From positions 62,001-126,000 of the forward strand of contig NZ_JOHR01000017.1 in NCBI RefSeq assembly GCF_000719775.1: a stretch of 64,000 nt of DNA, read 5' to 3'. The DNA comes from Streptomyces sp. NRRL F-5135. GTDB taxonomy: Bacteria > Actinomycetota > Actinomycetes > Streptomycetales > Streptomycetaceae. The translations under genes were made by a program, and so were the position numbers. Positions 17,725 through 22,877 of the stretch are shown in pieces. Numbering within the stretch: the stretch's first letter is position 1; each line of letters opens with the position of its first letter. The notes under the pieces were generated by a model that had not been told where the DNA came from, made no database searches, and saw only the letters and a program-made list of their open reading frames with translations.

Positions 17725-19863
17725 TCAGGCAGCGGCCCGGTCGGCGTCACGGCGCGTAATCGCGGCGGTGACGTCGGCGCGTTCGATACCGCGCCGGTTC
17801 TTGCCTTCACCGGCGTCGGTCTGGCCCCAGACCTGACCGGTCTTGATGCCCCACGGCTTGAGCGCGGCGGTGACGTTCTCGCCCTTCCACCCGGCGTAGA
17901 CCTCGGGCCGCAGCTCGGTCAGCCGCGCGGCGATGCGCTCGCACCACACAGCCTTTTCGTCGGCGGCGATGACGTCGGCCACGTCAGTGAGGATGTCCGC
18001 GCCAGCTGTCTTCTCCGGGCCCTTGCCGATGGCGTGGCCGGTGACGTTGCCGTACTTCTCGCGCACCTGGCGGGCGCGGGCGGCGATGCGTTCGGCGGCG
18101 ACCGCGTCCACGAACGCGGACGCGACGATGCGCGGGTCATCACCTTCACCGGCCATCCAGCAGATGCCCCGGTCGGAACGGGAGAACATCGTCGCCCGGT
18201 AGCCGGACTTGTACATGCTCGTGCCGAGCACCATGTCGTTCGCGGGCTGGCCCATCACCTTCAGGCAGAACCGCAGCACCGCGTTCGCACTGATACCGGT
18301 CGGCAGGGATTTGGCGTCGGGCCGCTGGGTGCCGAACAGAGCCACGATCCCCAGCGCCGGGCCGCGCTTGACCAGGTCGGTGCAGATCGCTTCGATCTCC
18401 TTGCCGTACTCCTCATGCTCGAACGGCACCTGGCACTCGTCGAACCCGGCCACGATCGGATGCAGCCCCAGCGCCTTGTCACTGGCCAGTTCCGGAGTCA
18501 CCTTCGACTCCGGGCAGCGCGAACGCGGCAGGGACTTGATGACCTTCGCCCGGCGCCGCAGCTCCTCTTTGAGTTCCCGGAGCGCGTCGAGGACGTATTC
18601 GATGTCCTCGGTCTCTTCACCGGCCCGGTAGCGGTGGCAGACCGGTTCCAGGGCGCCGAAGTCGCCGGTGCCCTTGAAGTCGAACGCGTGGAGTTCGGCG
18701 CGGGGGTCGAGTGCGGCGATGAGCAGGAACAGCCGCATCAGGAACGTCTTGCCCATCCGCGGAATGCTGCCGACGACGACGGAGGCGAACATGAGCGTCA
18801 CCGCGACGTCGCGCATGCGCTGGTCGTTGCCGAACACGACCGGCTTGAACAAGTCCACCGTGCCGGACTTCGCCAGCGGCCACGCCGGTTTGGTGGTCTC
18901 GTTCATGGGCTTGTCCCCGACCCACAGCACCAGCCGACCCTCATGCTCGGCCGGATCCGGGGCGGGCCACACACAGCCGACCTTGCGCCGCAGACCGGAC
19001 GCCAGGGGTTTGCGGGACTCCATGATGTCCTCGGGGGTGACGCCGTAGGGCAAATCGAGGTCGGCGCGGTAGCCGGGCCCGTCCCGCACGATCTCCGAGA
19101 CGAACCGCAGACCGTTCATGTCCCCGCCCTTCTTGATGGCGGCCGACACCTTGGCGTTGCCGATGCTGTCCAGCCCCCGCAGCACGATCGACCCGGTGAG
19201 CTTCTGCACCTCGGTCTTGAGGACGGCCGGGCCGACCACGGGGGCGTCGGGCTGCTGTCCGGCCATGCCGAGCAGCATCACCCCGCCGGCCGCGAACGCG
19301 TACAGGAAGGCGGGGGCCATGACGTAGAGCCACAGCGCGAACCCGGTCCCGAACACCGCCGCGACCAGGGTGACCATGCCGCGCAGACGCACCCGACCGG
19401 CCCGCAGACGCGACAGGCGCATGTACTCCTCCACGTCCTCGGACCGCACCGCCATCGCCCGCAGCGGCGCCGCTTCCCGGTCCCACACCCACCGGTTGGT
19501 GGAGGCCACGAACCGGCACGCTCCCCGTGGGGACATCAGCGTCAGCCGTCCGGCATACACGGGTACCCGCACCCCGTGATAGAGCGCGGAGTATCCGGCG
19601 TTCGCGACGGCGTGGCGGGCCGTGGCGGTGAAGTCCCGGCGGTTGGTCAGCCACCCGGCCAGAACCGGCTTCCGCTTCTCGCTGCGGACTCCGGGGGCGG
19701 GAAGGTGGGGGTTGTCGACCGGCACGGCCGCTGGCGCGTTTTCGGACCACCCCGACTCGGGCGCGGTCTCGGCCGGGGTCGGCGGGGCGGCGGCCGGTTC
19801 CGTCTCGGTGTCGGTGGCGGGAACCGCCCGCAGATGCGCGGGCGGCGGCGATGTATCCGTCAT
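17725..19863 (-). CDS. tra: FtsK/SpoIIIE-type conjugal DNA transfer ATPase
   Basis: A 712-residue TraB/TraSA-type motor expected to translocate double-stranded DNA at the hyphal septum. It has a disordered Pro/Glu-rich N-terminus, a short membrane region near residues 155-200 (MVTLVAAVFGTGFALWLYVM...FAAGGVMLLGMAG), Walker A GSIPRMGKTF (about 365), Walker B HPIVAGFDECQ (about 470), and a C-terminal winged-helix gamma-like region ending KNRRGIERADVTAAI that would read the clt repeats. ATG 19863 has AGGAGA 9 bases upstream. No relaxase is present, as expected for this mechanism. The closest known relatives are chromosome-integrating Streptomyces elements. Confidence 0.92.
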   Translation of the reverse strand: MTDTSPPPAHLRAVPATDTETEPAAAPPTPAETAPESGWSENAPAAVPVDNPHLPAPGVRSEKRKPVLAGWLTNRRDFTATARHAVANAGYSALYHGVRVPVYAGRLTLMSPRGACRFVASTNRWVWDREAAPLRAMAVRSEDVEEYMRLSRLRAGRVRLRGMVTLVAAVFGTGFALWLYVMAPAFLYAFAAGGVMLLGMAGQQPDAPVVGPAVLKTEVQKLTGSIVLRGLDSIGNAKVSAAIKKGGDMNGLRFVSEIVRDGPGYRADLDLPYGVTPEDIMESRKPLASGLRRKVGCVWPAPDPAEHEGRLVLWVGDKPMNETTKPAWPLAKSGTVDLFKPVVFGNDQRMRDVAVTLMFASVVVGSIPRMGKTFLMRLFLLIAALDPRAELHAFDFKGTGDFGALEPVCHRYRAGEETEDIEYVLDALRELKEELRRRAKVIKSLPRSRCPESKVTPELASDKALGLHPIVAGFDECQVPFEHEEYGKEIEAICTDLVKRGPALGIVALFGTQRPDAKSLPTGISANAVLRFCLKVMGQPANDMVLGTSMYKSGYRATMFSRSDRGICWMAGEGDDPRIVASAFVDAVAAERIAARARQVREKYGNVTGHAIGKGPEKTAGADILTDVADVIAADEKAVWCERIAARLTELRPEVYAGWKGENVTAALKPWGIKTGQVWGQTDAGEGKNRRGIERADVTAAITRRDADRAAA

Positions 19864-19907
19864 GCTGGGGGTCTCCTGTCTCGCCCCATGTGGGCGGTCG
19901 GGTTGGG

Positions 19908-19952
19908 CCCGGGGCGGCCGAACGCCCGGCCAAGGAAGCCGGCCGCCCCGGG
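19908..19952 (-). terminator. Hairpin between the 63-aa gene and tra
   Basis: A perfect 13-bp inverted repeat (CCCGGGGCGGCCG at 19908-19920 and its complement at 19940-19952) lies directly after the small gene at 19959-20150 and 45 bases before tra. It may limit read-through into tra. Confidence 0.55.
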
Positions 19953-19958
19953 GCGTAG

Positions 19959-20150
19959 TCACTTGCCGCGCTTCGCGGCCTTCTCGGCGCGCTTGGCGTC
20001 CTCGCGCTTCGCAGCCTTGTCCGCGATGCGGTCGAGCTTGCGCATCTGCTTTGTGGTCAGCTCCCCGCCCCGCAGAGCGGCGACAAGGGAGATGCCGAGC
20101 ACGCGGGCGGCCTCGGTGTGGTTGATGTCGTCGTAGTCGCTGATCCGCAC
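19959..20150 (-). CDS. Small basic protein with HTH-like N-terminus (63 aa)
   Basis: GTG 20150 with GGAG five bases upstream encodes 63 residues. The first half (DINHTEAARVLGISLVAALR) looks like a short helix-turn-helix; the second half is a highly basic, alanine/lysine-rich helix (AAKREDAKRAEKAAKRGK). It may bind DNA. I know of no named family. Hairpins flank it on both sides, so it forms its own transcription segment within the leftward block. Confidence 0.6.
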   Translation of the reverse strand: MRISDYDDINHTEAARVLGISLVAALRGGELTTKQMRKLDRIADKAAKREDAKRAEKAAKRGK

Positions 20151-20874: not shown

Positions 20875-22017
20875 TCAGGCGACGCGTGAGCGGCCGGTGT
20901 CGGCACTCGAGGTGAGTTGCAGGAGGGCTGCCGTGGCCTGTTGCGGCATGACGCCGTTGCCGAGTGCCTTGAGCTGTGCGCTGCGGGACAGTGCGGGGAC
21001 GTCGGTGACGTGGCCGGCGGGCAGGCCCATGAGCCATTCGACGAAGGGCGGGTTCAGCCGTCCCAGAGCGTCAGTTGGCCGGGGAGCGGGGCGCCCGAGG
21101 ACGGCTTCCCAACGCGTGACGGCCGGGCCGTACTCGCCGAAGTCGATGCCGGGGGCTGTAGCAGCATCGTCGCGTCCGTCAGGGTCCTGCCGTACCCGCC
21201 GGCGTAGGGCGTCCCGTCCGGCCGATGGTTCCGTGTTCCGTTCGAGTCGGCGACGGTCGGCGTGGGCAGCAGCTCCCCCACCTCCGCCGCCAGGCTCTTG
21301 CCGTGCCTGCCTGCTTCCTGCGACGGGGTGCGTCTGGTCTGCCGGTTCTCGTTCTCCGACGCCCGTGGGGTGGGCAGCAGAGAGACGACGTGCCGCAGAT
21401 TCATCCCGCCCTGGGCGGCGTGTCCGGGCCCGGTGTTCTCCGAGGTCGACGGGGTCGGAAGCAGAGAGGTGACGGCGGTGGGAAGCTGCCCCCTCTGCCC
21501 ACCGCCGCGCCAGTCCCTGGCTGCCGGTGTCGGCAGGCCACGCGAGGAAGAACAGTCGGTTGCGCTGGTGAGCGGCGCCGATGTCGGACGCGCGTACACA
21601 GCGCCATTCCGCATCGAACCCGAGCGCGGCAAGGTCACTGAGCACGGTGTCGAATCCGAGGGAAAGGTGACCTGCGACGTTCTCAAAGACCGCGAGCCGG
21701 GGTCGTAGAACCCCAAGGGCACGGGCAATGTCGGGCCAGATGTGCCGGGCATCCTTGGTTCCCTTCCGTTTGCCGGCGGAGCTGAAGGGCTGGCACGGGT
21801 AGCCGCCCGTGACGATGTCGACCGGTTCCACCGTGTGCCAGCCGACGGCCGTGAGGTCCCCGAGGTTGGGCACGCCGGGGTAGCGGTGGGCGAGGATGCG
21901 GGCGGCTCCGGGGTCGTTGTCCGCCACCCACGCGAGCGTGCCGCCGAAGACGGCCTGTACGGCCATGTCCAGACCGCCGTAACCGGTGCACACCGAACCG
22001 ATCCGCAGCGCGCTCAC
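20875..22017 (-). CDS. DNA (cytosine-5-)-methyltransferase
   Basis: A 380-residue C5 methyltransferase. Motif I is GSVCTGYGGLD near the N-terminus. Motif IV is GGYPCQPFSSAG with the catalytic Cys (about residue 73). ENV of motif VI is in VFENVAGHLS. Motif VIII is HQRNRLFFLA (about 150). Motifs IX-X are at the C-terminus (PPFVEWLMGLPAGHV; ALGNGVMPQQATAAL). The roughly 160-residue target-recognition region between VIII and IX is low-complexity in this frame because a second frame is also open there. GTG 22017 overlaps the previous stop (GTGA). No restriction enzyme is adjacent, so it is probably an orphan methylase protecting the element or altering host methylation. Confidence 0.9.
   Translation of the reverse strand: MSALRIGSVCTGYGGLDMAVQAVFGGTLAWVADNDPGAARILAHRYPGVPNLGDLTAVGWHTVEPVDIVTGGYPCQPFSSAGKRKGTKDARHIWPDIARALGVLRPRLAVFENVAGHLSLGFDTVLSDLAALGFDAEWRCVRASDIGAAHQRNRLFFLAWPADTGSQGLARRWAEGAASHRRHLSASDPVDLGEHRARTRRPGRDESAARRLSAAHPTGVGEREPADQTHPVAGSRQARQEPGGGGGGAAAHADRRRLERNTEPSAGRDALRRRVRQDPDGRDDAATAPGIDFGEYGPAVTRWEAVLGRPAPRPTDALGRLNPPFVEWLMGLPAGHVTDVPALSRSAQLKALGNGVMPQQATAALLQLTSSADTGRSRVA
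21054..21752 (-). CDS. ORF nested in the methyltransferase gene, LPTP-repeat protein
   Basis: In another frame of the same strand, 232 codons are open within the methyltransferase gene. The product has protein-like order: an N-terminal section with RSLRTSQVTFPSDS and LPRSGSMRNGAVYARP, then repeats headed by LPTP at 24-36-residue spacing (GLPTPAARDW, LLPTPSTSEN, LLPTPRASEN, LLPTPTVADS, degenerate LLQPP), each preceded by a hydrophobic-ended segment, and the end GQLTLWDG. From memory, similar LLPTP-repeat sequences occur widely in predicted proteins linked to phage and element methylase genes. Start codon uncertain (ATG 21752 is the longest). Translation is not proven; it may be an overprinted gene or a frame-conserved shadow. 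Confidence 0.45.
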   Translation of the reverse strand: MPGTSGPTLPVPLGFYDPGSRSLRTSQVTFPSDSTPCSVTLPRSGSMRNGAVYARPTSAPLTSATDCSSSRGLPTPAARDWRGGGQRGQLPTAVTSLLPTPSTSENTGPGHAAQGGMNLRHVVSLLPTPRASENENRQTRRTPSQEAGRHGKSLAAEVGELLPTPTVADSNGTRNHRPDGTPYAGGYGRTLTDATMLLQPPASTSASTARPSRVGKPSSGAPLPGQLTLWDG

Positions 22018-22877
22018 GCGGACACCTCGGAGGGGACGAGGGAGAGCTGGCCGGGAGACGGTTGCGGGCCGCGTTCGTCCTCCAGGCGGGCGAACACCTT
22101 CTTCACGTACGAGGTGCTGCGGGTGGCCTGTCGCGCGGTCTCGGTGACCGGGGTGCCCATCACCCAGCACGCGCGGATCACGTTCGCCGCCGCTTCGGTC
22201 GGCAACCTCTCGCCGGGCTCGCCGGTCACCTCTTCGCCGGTGTCCGACGCGGGGACGGCGAGTGGCCACACCCGGCGGTCACCACAGATGACCAGCGCAG
22301 AGACATCCTCGGATGCGGACGGCCGCTCCGGGCGGGCAGGCGCGGCGGTGGACACCTCCGGCGCAGCGGTCGGGGCCCCCTCGATGGGGTGCTGCACTGG
22401 ATCGGAAGCGGGCAGCGGGGTGACCACGGGCACCACTGGTTCGGTGTCCGGCCGGTGGTGGAGAACCTTCGCGACGAGGTCCGAGCCGAAGTAGATCGAC
22501 CCGACCGGAAGCGAGGTGGCGAGCAGAACCAGGGCCCAGTTGGCGGGGTCCCAGTCGGCCAGTCGACCCCAGTCGACCGACCGGCCGTGCAGCGCGGGCA
22601 CGAGTCCGTGGACGTAGTTCAGGATGAGCGAGGCGATCGTGTAGGTGGCGAGCACCCGCAGCGCGAACCGCCGGTCGTCCCGGTCCGTCAGAACCAGGGT
22701 GGCGATGAGGGCCAGTGCCATCAGTCCGTCGACTACGAACGGGTACAGGTTCGCGGCCGTCTCGTCCGCCCCGATCGCACGGGCCACATCCCGCAGCGCG
22801 TTCCACGACACCCGAAACGCCATGGCGACCACGCCGACCAGCGCCAGGACGAGCAGCGTCTTAGCCGTGCGGTTCAT
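22014..22877 (-). CDS. DUF2637 membrane protein, spread (Spd)-type
   Basis: A 287-residue protein. Four predicted membrane helices lie in the first 135 residues (AKTLLVLALVGVVAMAF; VVDGLMALALIATLVL; ATYTIASLILNYVHGL; NWALVLLATSLPVGSIYF), fitting DUF2637. A Pro-rich linker leads to a C-terminal helix-turn-helix-like part (ANVIRACWVMGTPVTETARQ...STSYVKKVFARL). Such proteins occur in most Streptomyces conjugative elements and are linked to plasmid spread between hyphal compartments. ATG 22877 overlaps the previous stop; its own stop overlaps the methyltransferase start. Confidence 0.85.
   Translation of the reverse strand: MNRTAKTLLVLALVGVVAMAFRVSWNALRDVARAIGADETAANLYPFVVDGLMALALIATLVLTDRDDRRFALRVLATYTIASLILNYVHGLVPALHGRSVDWGRLADWDPANWALVLLATSLPVGSIYFGSDLVAKVLHHRPDTEPVVPVVTPLPASDPVQHPIEGAPTAAPEVSTAAPARPERPSASEDVSALVICGDRRVWPLAVPASDTGEEVTGEPGERLPTEAAANVIRACWVMGTPVTETARQATRSTSYVKKVFARLEDERGPQPSPGQLSLVPSEVSA

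Follow-up and report, generated by a model that had tools for sequence, protein, structure and literature searches.

A reading frame kept by selection inside a cytosine C5-methyltransferase gene, and its probable role as a second chain for target recognition

Two-chain methyltransferases and the Streptomyces locus

Long overlaps on the same strand with selection acting in both frames are rare in bacteria. A candidate case is described here in a stretch of 64,000 nucleotides from Streptomyces sp. NRRL F-5135 (contig NZ_JOHR01000017.1, hereafter called the window), where the gene of a DNA cytosine C5-methyltransferase (alpha) contains a second frame (beta), shifted by +1 and made largely of repeats headed by the residues LPTP (cassettes). 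Relatives of this locus show both frames maintained by selection, and certain phages have the cassettes fused into the alpha frame between motifs VIII and IX. To judge from sequence comparison, beta is most likely a second chain that supplies target recognition to alpha, in the manner of M.EcoHK31I and M.AquI. C5-methyltransferases made of two chains are indeed already known, but a nested cassette gene with exchange between frames seems not to be.

In M.EcoHK31I, the gene of the small chain is reportedly nested within that of the large chain. PMC3404938 locates motifs I to VIII and X of this enzyme (target YGGCCR) on the large chain and motif IX on the smaller one. The same distribution, as placed by sequence pattern, is found in 74 of 80 viral relatives of low guanine-plus-cytosine (GC) content, with motif IX on beta and motifs I to VIII and X on alpha. 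In contrast, motif IX of the window lies in alpha and not on the small chain. The nested frame is under selection in low-GC viral and Streptomyces-type relatives, and may give a second polypeptide of the M.EcoHK31I kind. The small chain of M.AquI (CYCGRG) carries part of the variable region together with motifs IX and X, according to PMC3404938. Its layout is that of phages GigiOuiOui, Upyo and Samy, in which both motifs are carried by beta, whereas in the window both lie in alpha and beta is wholly nested. The multispecific C5-methyltransferases of Bacillus phages consist of one chain read in one frame. In those of the M.H2I and SPR kind, tandem recognition domains give several targets (PMC8936443); beta also has different cassettes in tandem in the same region, a likeness of arrangement.

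No account of the nested gene's double selection, cassettes or frame exchange was found in the open-licence literature, which is a weak negative: the gene does not appear in the available portions of PMC3404938, PMC3439449, PMC6456624, PMC3711429, PMC4722110, PMC8936443, PMC6070908 and PMC11860570. The annotation in PMC6070908 reportedly penalised overlapping genes. The family of beta, phrog_1008, is labelled merely 'DNA methyltransferase'. Nested genes are annotated in two phages of Paenibacillus larvae. In phage Shelly (locus L186, KP296795.1), SHELLY_56 is annotated as 'g55 internal gene' within the DNA-cytosine methyltransferase gene SHELLY_55; it is thus nested like beta, in a record silent on selection, cassettes and frame exchange. 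In phage Leyra (locus L188, MG727701.1, LEYRA_61/62), a nested second 'DNA-cytosine methyltransferase' is annotated.

The features of the window locus, in window positions, are the following:

20875..22017, minus strand: alpha, C5-methyltransferase in frame 0, 380 amino acids, probable start GTG at 22017
21054..21752, minus strand: beta, nested frame at +1 relative to alpha with its own ATG, 232 amino acids, phrog_1008 family
21760..21767, minus strand: GGAAGGGA, Shine-Dalgarno-like, 7 bases upstream of the beta ATG
21537..21752, minus strand: non-repetitive N-terminal part of beta (SLRTSQ, RSGSMRNG), over alpha from ENV to motif VIII, both frames held
21462..21536, minus strand: LPTP cassette 1, of a type with 32 members
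21378..21461, minus strand: LPTP cassette 2, of a type with 64 members
21270..21377, minus strand: LPTP cassette 3, of a type shared with loci L004, L005 and L098
21162..21269, minus strand: LPTP cassette 4, of a type with 32 members
21054..21161, minus strand: tail of beta, from LQPP to GQLTLWDG and the stop, partly a shadow of LGRLNPPF in alpha
21019..21057, minus strand: motif IX of alpha, LNPPFVEWLMGLP, from sequence pattern and the C-terminal phrog_1008 match
20938..20964, minus strand: motif X of alpha, LGNGVMPQQ, from sequence pattern

The start of alpha was placed where homology begins, its frame staying open up to 22269 (20875–22269, minus strand). Pfam DNA_methylase matches it at 1.4e-28 (amino acids 89–248 of the longer frame), and phrog_363 and phrog_116 match across most of its length. 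Its membership of PF00145 is borne out by motifs I to VIII with the catalytic PC, and by motifs IX and X; GYPCQPFS, ENV and HQRNR are all found. The motif numbers (I to X) used for alpha and beta are those we take to apply. The sequence-only reading had described a 232-codon frame with LPTP-headed repeats and a RSGSMRNG N-terminal part, and this frame is indeed present, as are HQRNRLFFLA and LTSATDCSSS, one in each frame. The LPTP heads start at 21536, 21461, 21377 and 21269, with a degenerate fifth (LQPP) at 21161. The GGAAGGGA stretch is partly dictated by alpha residues. A purine-rich stretch occupies its position in all 16 GC-rich loci having the beta ATG, part of it again being forced by alpha residues.

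Selection on both frames among relatives

For beta, loci picked by frame 0 make the fairer test, and the 80 low-GC viral loci were gathered with a frame-0 query. With L005 included, the +1 frame is open over 199–317 codons in 75 of 81 loci. Permutation of synonymous codons gave a mean longest +1 run of 66–163 codons, and the observed length was reached at most 5 times in 200. Alpha is interrupted in the other six loci, a long +1 frame over the array being present there as well. Stops were then counted in 51 loci, obtained from the 81 by removal of 2 with motif VIII unmatched and of 28 redundant ones. From RHLWP to motif VIII, no +1 stop was found in 3468 codons, versus 138.5 expected (standard deviation, s.d., 8.4). 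Downstream of motif VIII there were 16 in 7235 codons versus 136.3 expected (s.d. 9.6). The upstream region shows no such depletion (81 in 3151 versus 80.0 expected), and stops are more frequent than expected just before the alpha end (106 in 1173 versus 41.8). A conserved alpha with stops collecting in the LPTP frame, the case that the sequence-only reading had named as its refutation, was sought and not found in these low-GC loci, and its proposal of an overprinted gene over the target-recognition region is strongly supported by these tests on relatives. The 72 control open reading frames (ORFs) from the same contigs, chosen by length only and possibly including shadows, show no depletion (1616 stops versus 1558.9 expected), with a longest +1 run of 139 codons.

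The depletion starts about 36 codons ahead of RHLWP (no stop in 1555 codons versus 40.8 expected). Among 50 low-GC loci, an ATG lies 41 to 38 codons ahead of RHLWP in 38 (19.5 expected), at position -2 in 39 (21.5 expected), and somewhere between -46 and -2 in 48; locus L096 was left out of this analysis and of that of the synonymous sites.

Frame 0 was examined reciprocally in 36 GC-rich loci. It stays open through beta in 33 of them versus 9.1 expected, with 8 stops versus 59.9 expected (s.d. 6.4). Of the three loci with stops, two (L036 and L043) carry the C-terminus in the beta frame, and the script set the phase of L026 wrongly, its alpha match being broken upstream. The corresponding low-GC count (no stop versus 276.5 expected) is biased, these loci having been picked by frame 0. 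Earlier +1 counts in the GC-rich loci whose C-terminus lies in frame 0 (17 versus 42.1 and 7 versus 23.1) go in the same direction and are not used as support, since region B had been mis-set where an insert follows ENV and L007 had been mis-cut.

Synonymous sites give a finer view of how the two constraints are distributed. In the low-GC loci, the fraction of alpha 4-fold sites that differ is.631 upstream and.547 over the final 30 codons (motif X), versus.324 in the overlap before motif VIII and.226 in the array. Protein identity is comparable upstream and before motif VIII (.727 and.710), and.469 of the +1 4-fold sites differ in the array. Six close Streptomyces-type loci give alpha values of.383 upstream,.391 after the array,.224 before motif VIII and.227 in the array, with.419 for the +1 sites in the array. 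The equivalent figures for eleven GC-rich loci are.443,.450,.319 and.318, with.409 at +1. These regional differences indicate that both frames are held ahead of motif VIII. Together with the open frame 0, they further indicate that selection within the array maintains the LPTP frame and leaves alpha free except for stops.

Codon-position GC content was followed along the window locus in 50-codon windows. Upstream in alpha, its peak is at frame-0 position 3 (up to.94). Within the repeats, the LPTP wobble position reaches.852 versus.671 and.652 at the other two, and after the array frame-0 position 3 is on top again (.833). In 29 of 30 GC-rich loci, that of the window included, GC over the array is highest at the LPTP wobble base. 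By these sequence-based tests, the LPTP frame is a nested gene maintained by selection and not a shadow.

Relatives, layouts and cassette repertoire

A database search with the LPTP frame gave at least 1390 proteins at E ≤ 1e-3, the best 7986 candidates having been scored. Among the matches listed for the window beta, the named LPTP proteins carry the name hypothetical, and several relatives have tails resembling that of beta. Family phrog_1008 matches the LPTP frame at 5.9e-27 (profile positions 64–209 of 329) and the C-terminus of alpha at 4.9e-32 (positions 223–321), where phrog_363 matches too. This split of one profile over the LPTP frame and alpha points to a single protein elsewhere and two frames in the window. 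The window beta and betas of low-GC viral loci are covered by phrog_1008 alike, and no Pfam or NCBIfam match to the window beta was obtained at E ≤ 1. Matches occur in 40 of the 200 genomes searched of the window's family (window genome included), in 3 plasmids and in 247 phage records, every one below 60% identity and 186 of them from Mycobacterium. With the beta of L044, a low-GC viral locus, as query, 3859 matches were obtained. When genome contigs were scanned with the L004 beta, 30 loci emerged, 29 in metagenome bins and one in a Streptomyces; the bin titles name Acidobacteria, Proteobacteria, Bacteroidetes, Clostridia, Nitrospirales, Verrucomicrobiia, Gemmatimonadetes, Planctomycetes, Treponema and others. 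A script placed alpha in 21 of these 30 loci, and over motif VIII their +1 frame runs open for 177–425 codons and the +2 frame for 7–121. The sequence-only reading had described LPTP-repeat proteins as frequent beside methylases in phages and other elements. They do occur with methylases in phages, but in the relatives that could be placed the frame is within the methylase gene or runs across it, and is not beside it.

Layouts were assigned by sequence pattern, alpha being unplaced in 8 of 43, 0 of 80, 3 of 32 and 18 of 30 loci. The predominant low-GC viral layout (the 74 of 80 loci mentioned above) has the cassettes in beta together with motif IX. The layout of the window, in which alpha has motifs IX and X and beta the cassettes only, is shared by 17 of the 43 GC-rich loci; motif IX is in beta and X in alpha in 3 others, both are in beta in 3, and 12 are partial, besides the 8 unplaced. 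Ramsey-like phages carry cassettes in the alpha frame itself, placed between motifs VIII and IX. Of 32 Ramsey-like viral loci, 15 have cassettes, IX and X in alpha, plus still one cassette in beta; in 4, motifs IX and X are in beta, and 10 have other layouts, besides the 3 unplaced. The +1 frame ahead of motif VIII remains constrained even in 14 fused loci, with no stop in 462 codons versus 6.5 expected, and.243 of the 4-fold sites differ there versus.467 upstream, at comparable identity. A quick alpha tree, with long branches, requires at least 10 changes between the four layouts over its 75 placed rows (minimum possible 3), 20 of 95 rows being unsure and excluded from this count. That the cassettes and motifs IX and X switch frames among relatives would be difficult to account for if the two frames did not contribute to the same enzyme.

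A further feature was seen at the junction of 12 fused loci. In six of them (L008, L126, L127, L134, L143 and L149), the beta frame ends 3 or 4 codons before the array resumes in alpha, as if the two frames shared one array. The gap is 44–74 codons in five others, and the frames overlap in L137.

The cassettes number 986 and fall into 160 clusters, of which 36 have at least five members; these types depend on the chosen cut-off, a duplicate L005 entry was removed, and fused arrays were counted in the database protein only and not in its beta frame. Window cassette 3 belongs to a type of 74 members: the window and its database matches hold 71 of them, and L004, L005 and L098 one each. The four cassettes of the window belong to four types, and this lack of repetition is general. 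With position kept, no type is repeated within an array among 120 arrays (the window and its matches; 39.0 repeats expected, s.d. 4.7), nor among 113 arrays of a second protein set (36.6 expected, s.d. 4.0). The same result is obtained with distinct arrays only (0 versus 36.5 in 107 arrays and 0 versus 25.4 in 88). The low-GC viral arrays also show no repeat, versus 1.4 expected, a set too small to tell. This pattern would fit cassettes of different function, or the loss of similar repeats by recombination. A broader proposal can be put forward only tentatively, as a possibility that we would not favour over its contrary: the LPTP cassettes may form a combinatorial library of specificity units in a nested gene, shuffled between genomes and unrepeated in each array, with the array and motifs IX and X movable between frames to give a two-chain or a one-chain enzyme.

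Candidate roles of the nested gene

In the reading favoured here, the same bases would encode two proteins, alpha in frame 0 and beta in frame +1. Alpha would be the catalytic chain, and its stretch beneath the LPTP array a tolerant linker that mainly needs to remain open. We infer that beta is translated from its own ATG inside the alpha gene, with GGAAGGGA ahead. It would overlie alpha in the other frame as far as motif VIII and then run into the LPTP array, which would sit where C5-methyltransferases carry their target-recognition region. Beta would assemble with alpha in a complex and provide target recognition, its cassettes contacting the DNA and perhaps specifying one target each. Several targets could in turn protect the DNA of the element against several restriction enzymes.

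Several observations weigh against such a role. The window alpha alone has every catalytic motif and might work without beta. The ATG at position -2 before RHLWP is absent in 11 of the 50 low-GC loci, and in 16 of the 32 GC-rich loci with RHLWP placed. In the eleven GC-rich loci, the alpha 4-fold differences are no lower in the array than in the N-terminal overlap, and the unrepeated cassettes could arise from deletion between similar repeats. Besides, the predicted recognition domain of M.EcoHK31I is in its larger chain (PMC3404938), whereas the variable region of the present family is maintained in the LPTP frame. AlphaFold models add to these points. The window beta is not folded, with a mean predicted local distance difference test score (pLDDT) of 57.3, and in a fused form the cassettes are mostly below 50 while the catalytic and C-terminal parts are mostly above 90. 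The models therefore lend no structural support to a recognition domain, although shuffled cassettes that align badly may be the cause of this poor folding. A Foldseek search with the fused model retrieved M.HhaI and other C5-methyltransferases, as expected for the catalytic part, and comparison of the beta profile with solved structures gave no chain at E ≤ 0.01.

Beta might otherwise be a real nested gene working apart from the enzyme, for instance as an anti-restriction or regulatory protein lodged in a tolerant part of alpha. Double selection is indeed silent on the role of beta, and the full set of motifs in the window alpha would suit this explanation, as would the cassettes left unfolded in the models. 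It nevertheless appears unlikely, given that the cassettes of Ramsey-like phages stand in the alpha frame between motifs VIII and IX, that beta has the motif IX missing from alpha in most low-GC loci, and that the GigiOuiOui, Upyo and Samy betas carry both IX and X.

A single protein produced by frame changes, in which ribosomes would leave alpha for the LPTP frame past motif VIII and, at the window locus, return before motif IX, would place the cassettes as they are in the fused phages. This is very improbable: the window needs two changes, in the low-GC loci constraint on the +1 frame reaches far upstream of motif VIII, and frame 0 is held through the array. No X_XXY_YYZ heptamer for a -1 shift is present in the alpha frame (+1 shift sites were not searched for). 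The target domain used by frameshifting, which the sequence-only reading had offered as its other option, is thus unsupported, in view of the missing heptamer, the constraint beginning some 36 codons before RHLWP and the beta ATG with its own GGAAGGGA.

The reading of the LPTP frame as a GC-rich shadow cast by a conserved alpha is hardly credible and was rejected: the window does hold many long shadow ORFs, and beta partly mirrors alpha motifs (SGSMRNG over GFDAEW), but alpha-preserving codon permutation fails to yield the open +1 frame of the low-GC relatives, the 72 control ORFs have no such openness, and the codon signature and wobble changes track the LPTP frame in the array. Long shadow ORFs are so abundant in this GC-rich window (203 listed ORFs of at least 120 amino acids) that the 232-codon length of beta is by itself no evidence. 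The claim of an order beyond that of random shadows stands instead on the database and phrog_1008 matches, and on selection in relatives.

The overlap, at least about 200 codons long, is found both in viral contigs and among genome bins from many phyla, the host gene being usually annotated as one methyltransferase. If beta is a second chain that provides specificity, as we favour, a cloned alpha alone would be inactive or wrongly described, and the cassettes would amount to a readable catalogue of methylation specificities. The change of frame among relatives also makes this a case on which ideas about the origin and break-up of overlapping genes can be tested.

Some alpha genes of the relatives are interrupted. 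In five of the 80 low-GC viral loci (L053, L061, L077, L091 and L110), a six-base difference creates a stop codon in alpha just ahead of the catalytic cysteine, the remaining alpha and beta being open; possible explanations are readthrough, a split alpha and a scar left by recombination. One viral contig (L116) has two neighbouring stops near the N-terminus of alpha, the remainder being open, and beta too. In the window, a FtsK/SpoIIIE-like gene (17725–19962, minus strand, under the Pfam cut-off) and a DUF2637 gene (22014–22877, minus strand) lie close to the methyltransferase gene. Such neighbours are presumably those of actinomycete integrative elements, which suggests that the methyltransferase locus is part of one.
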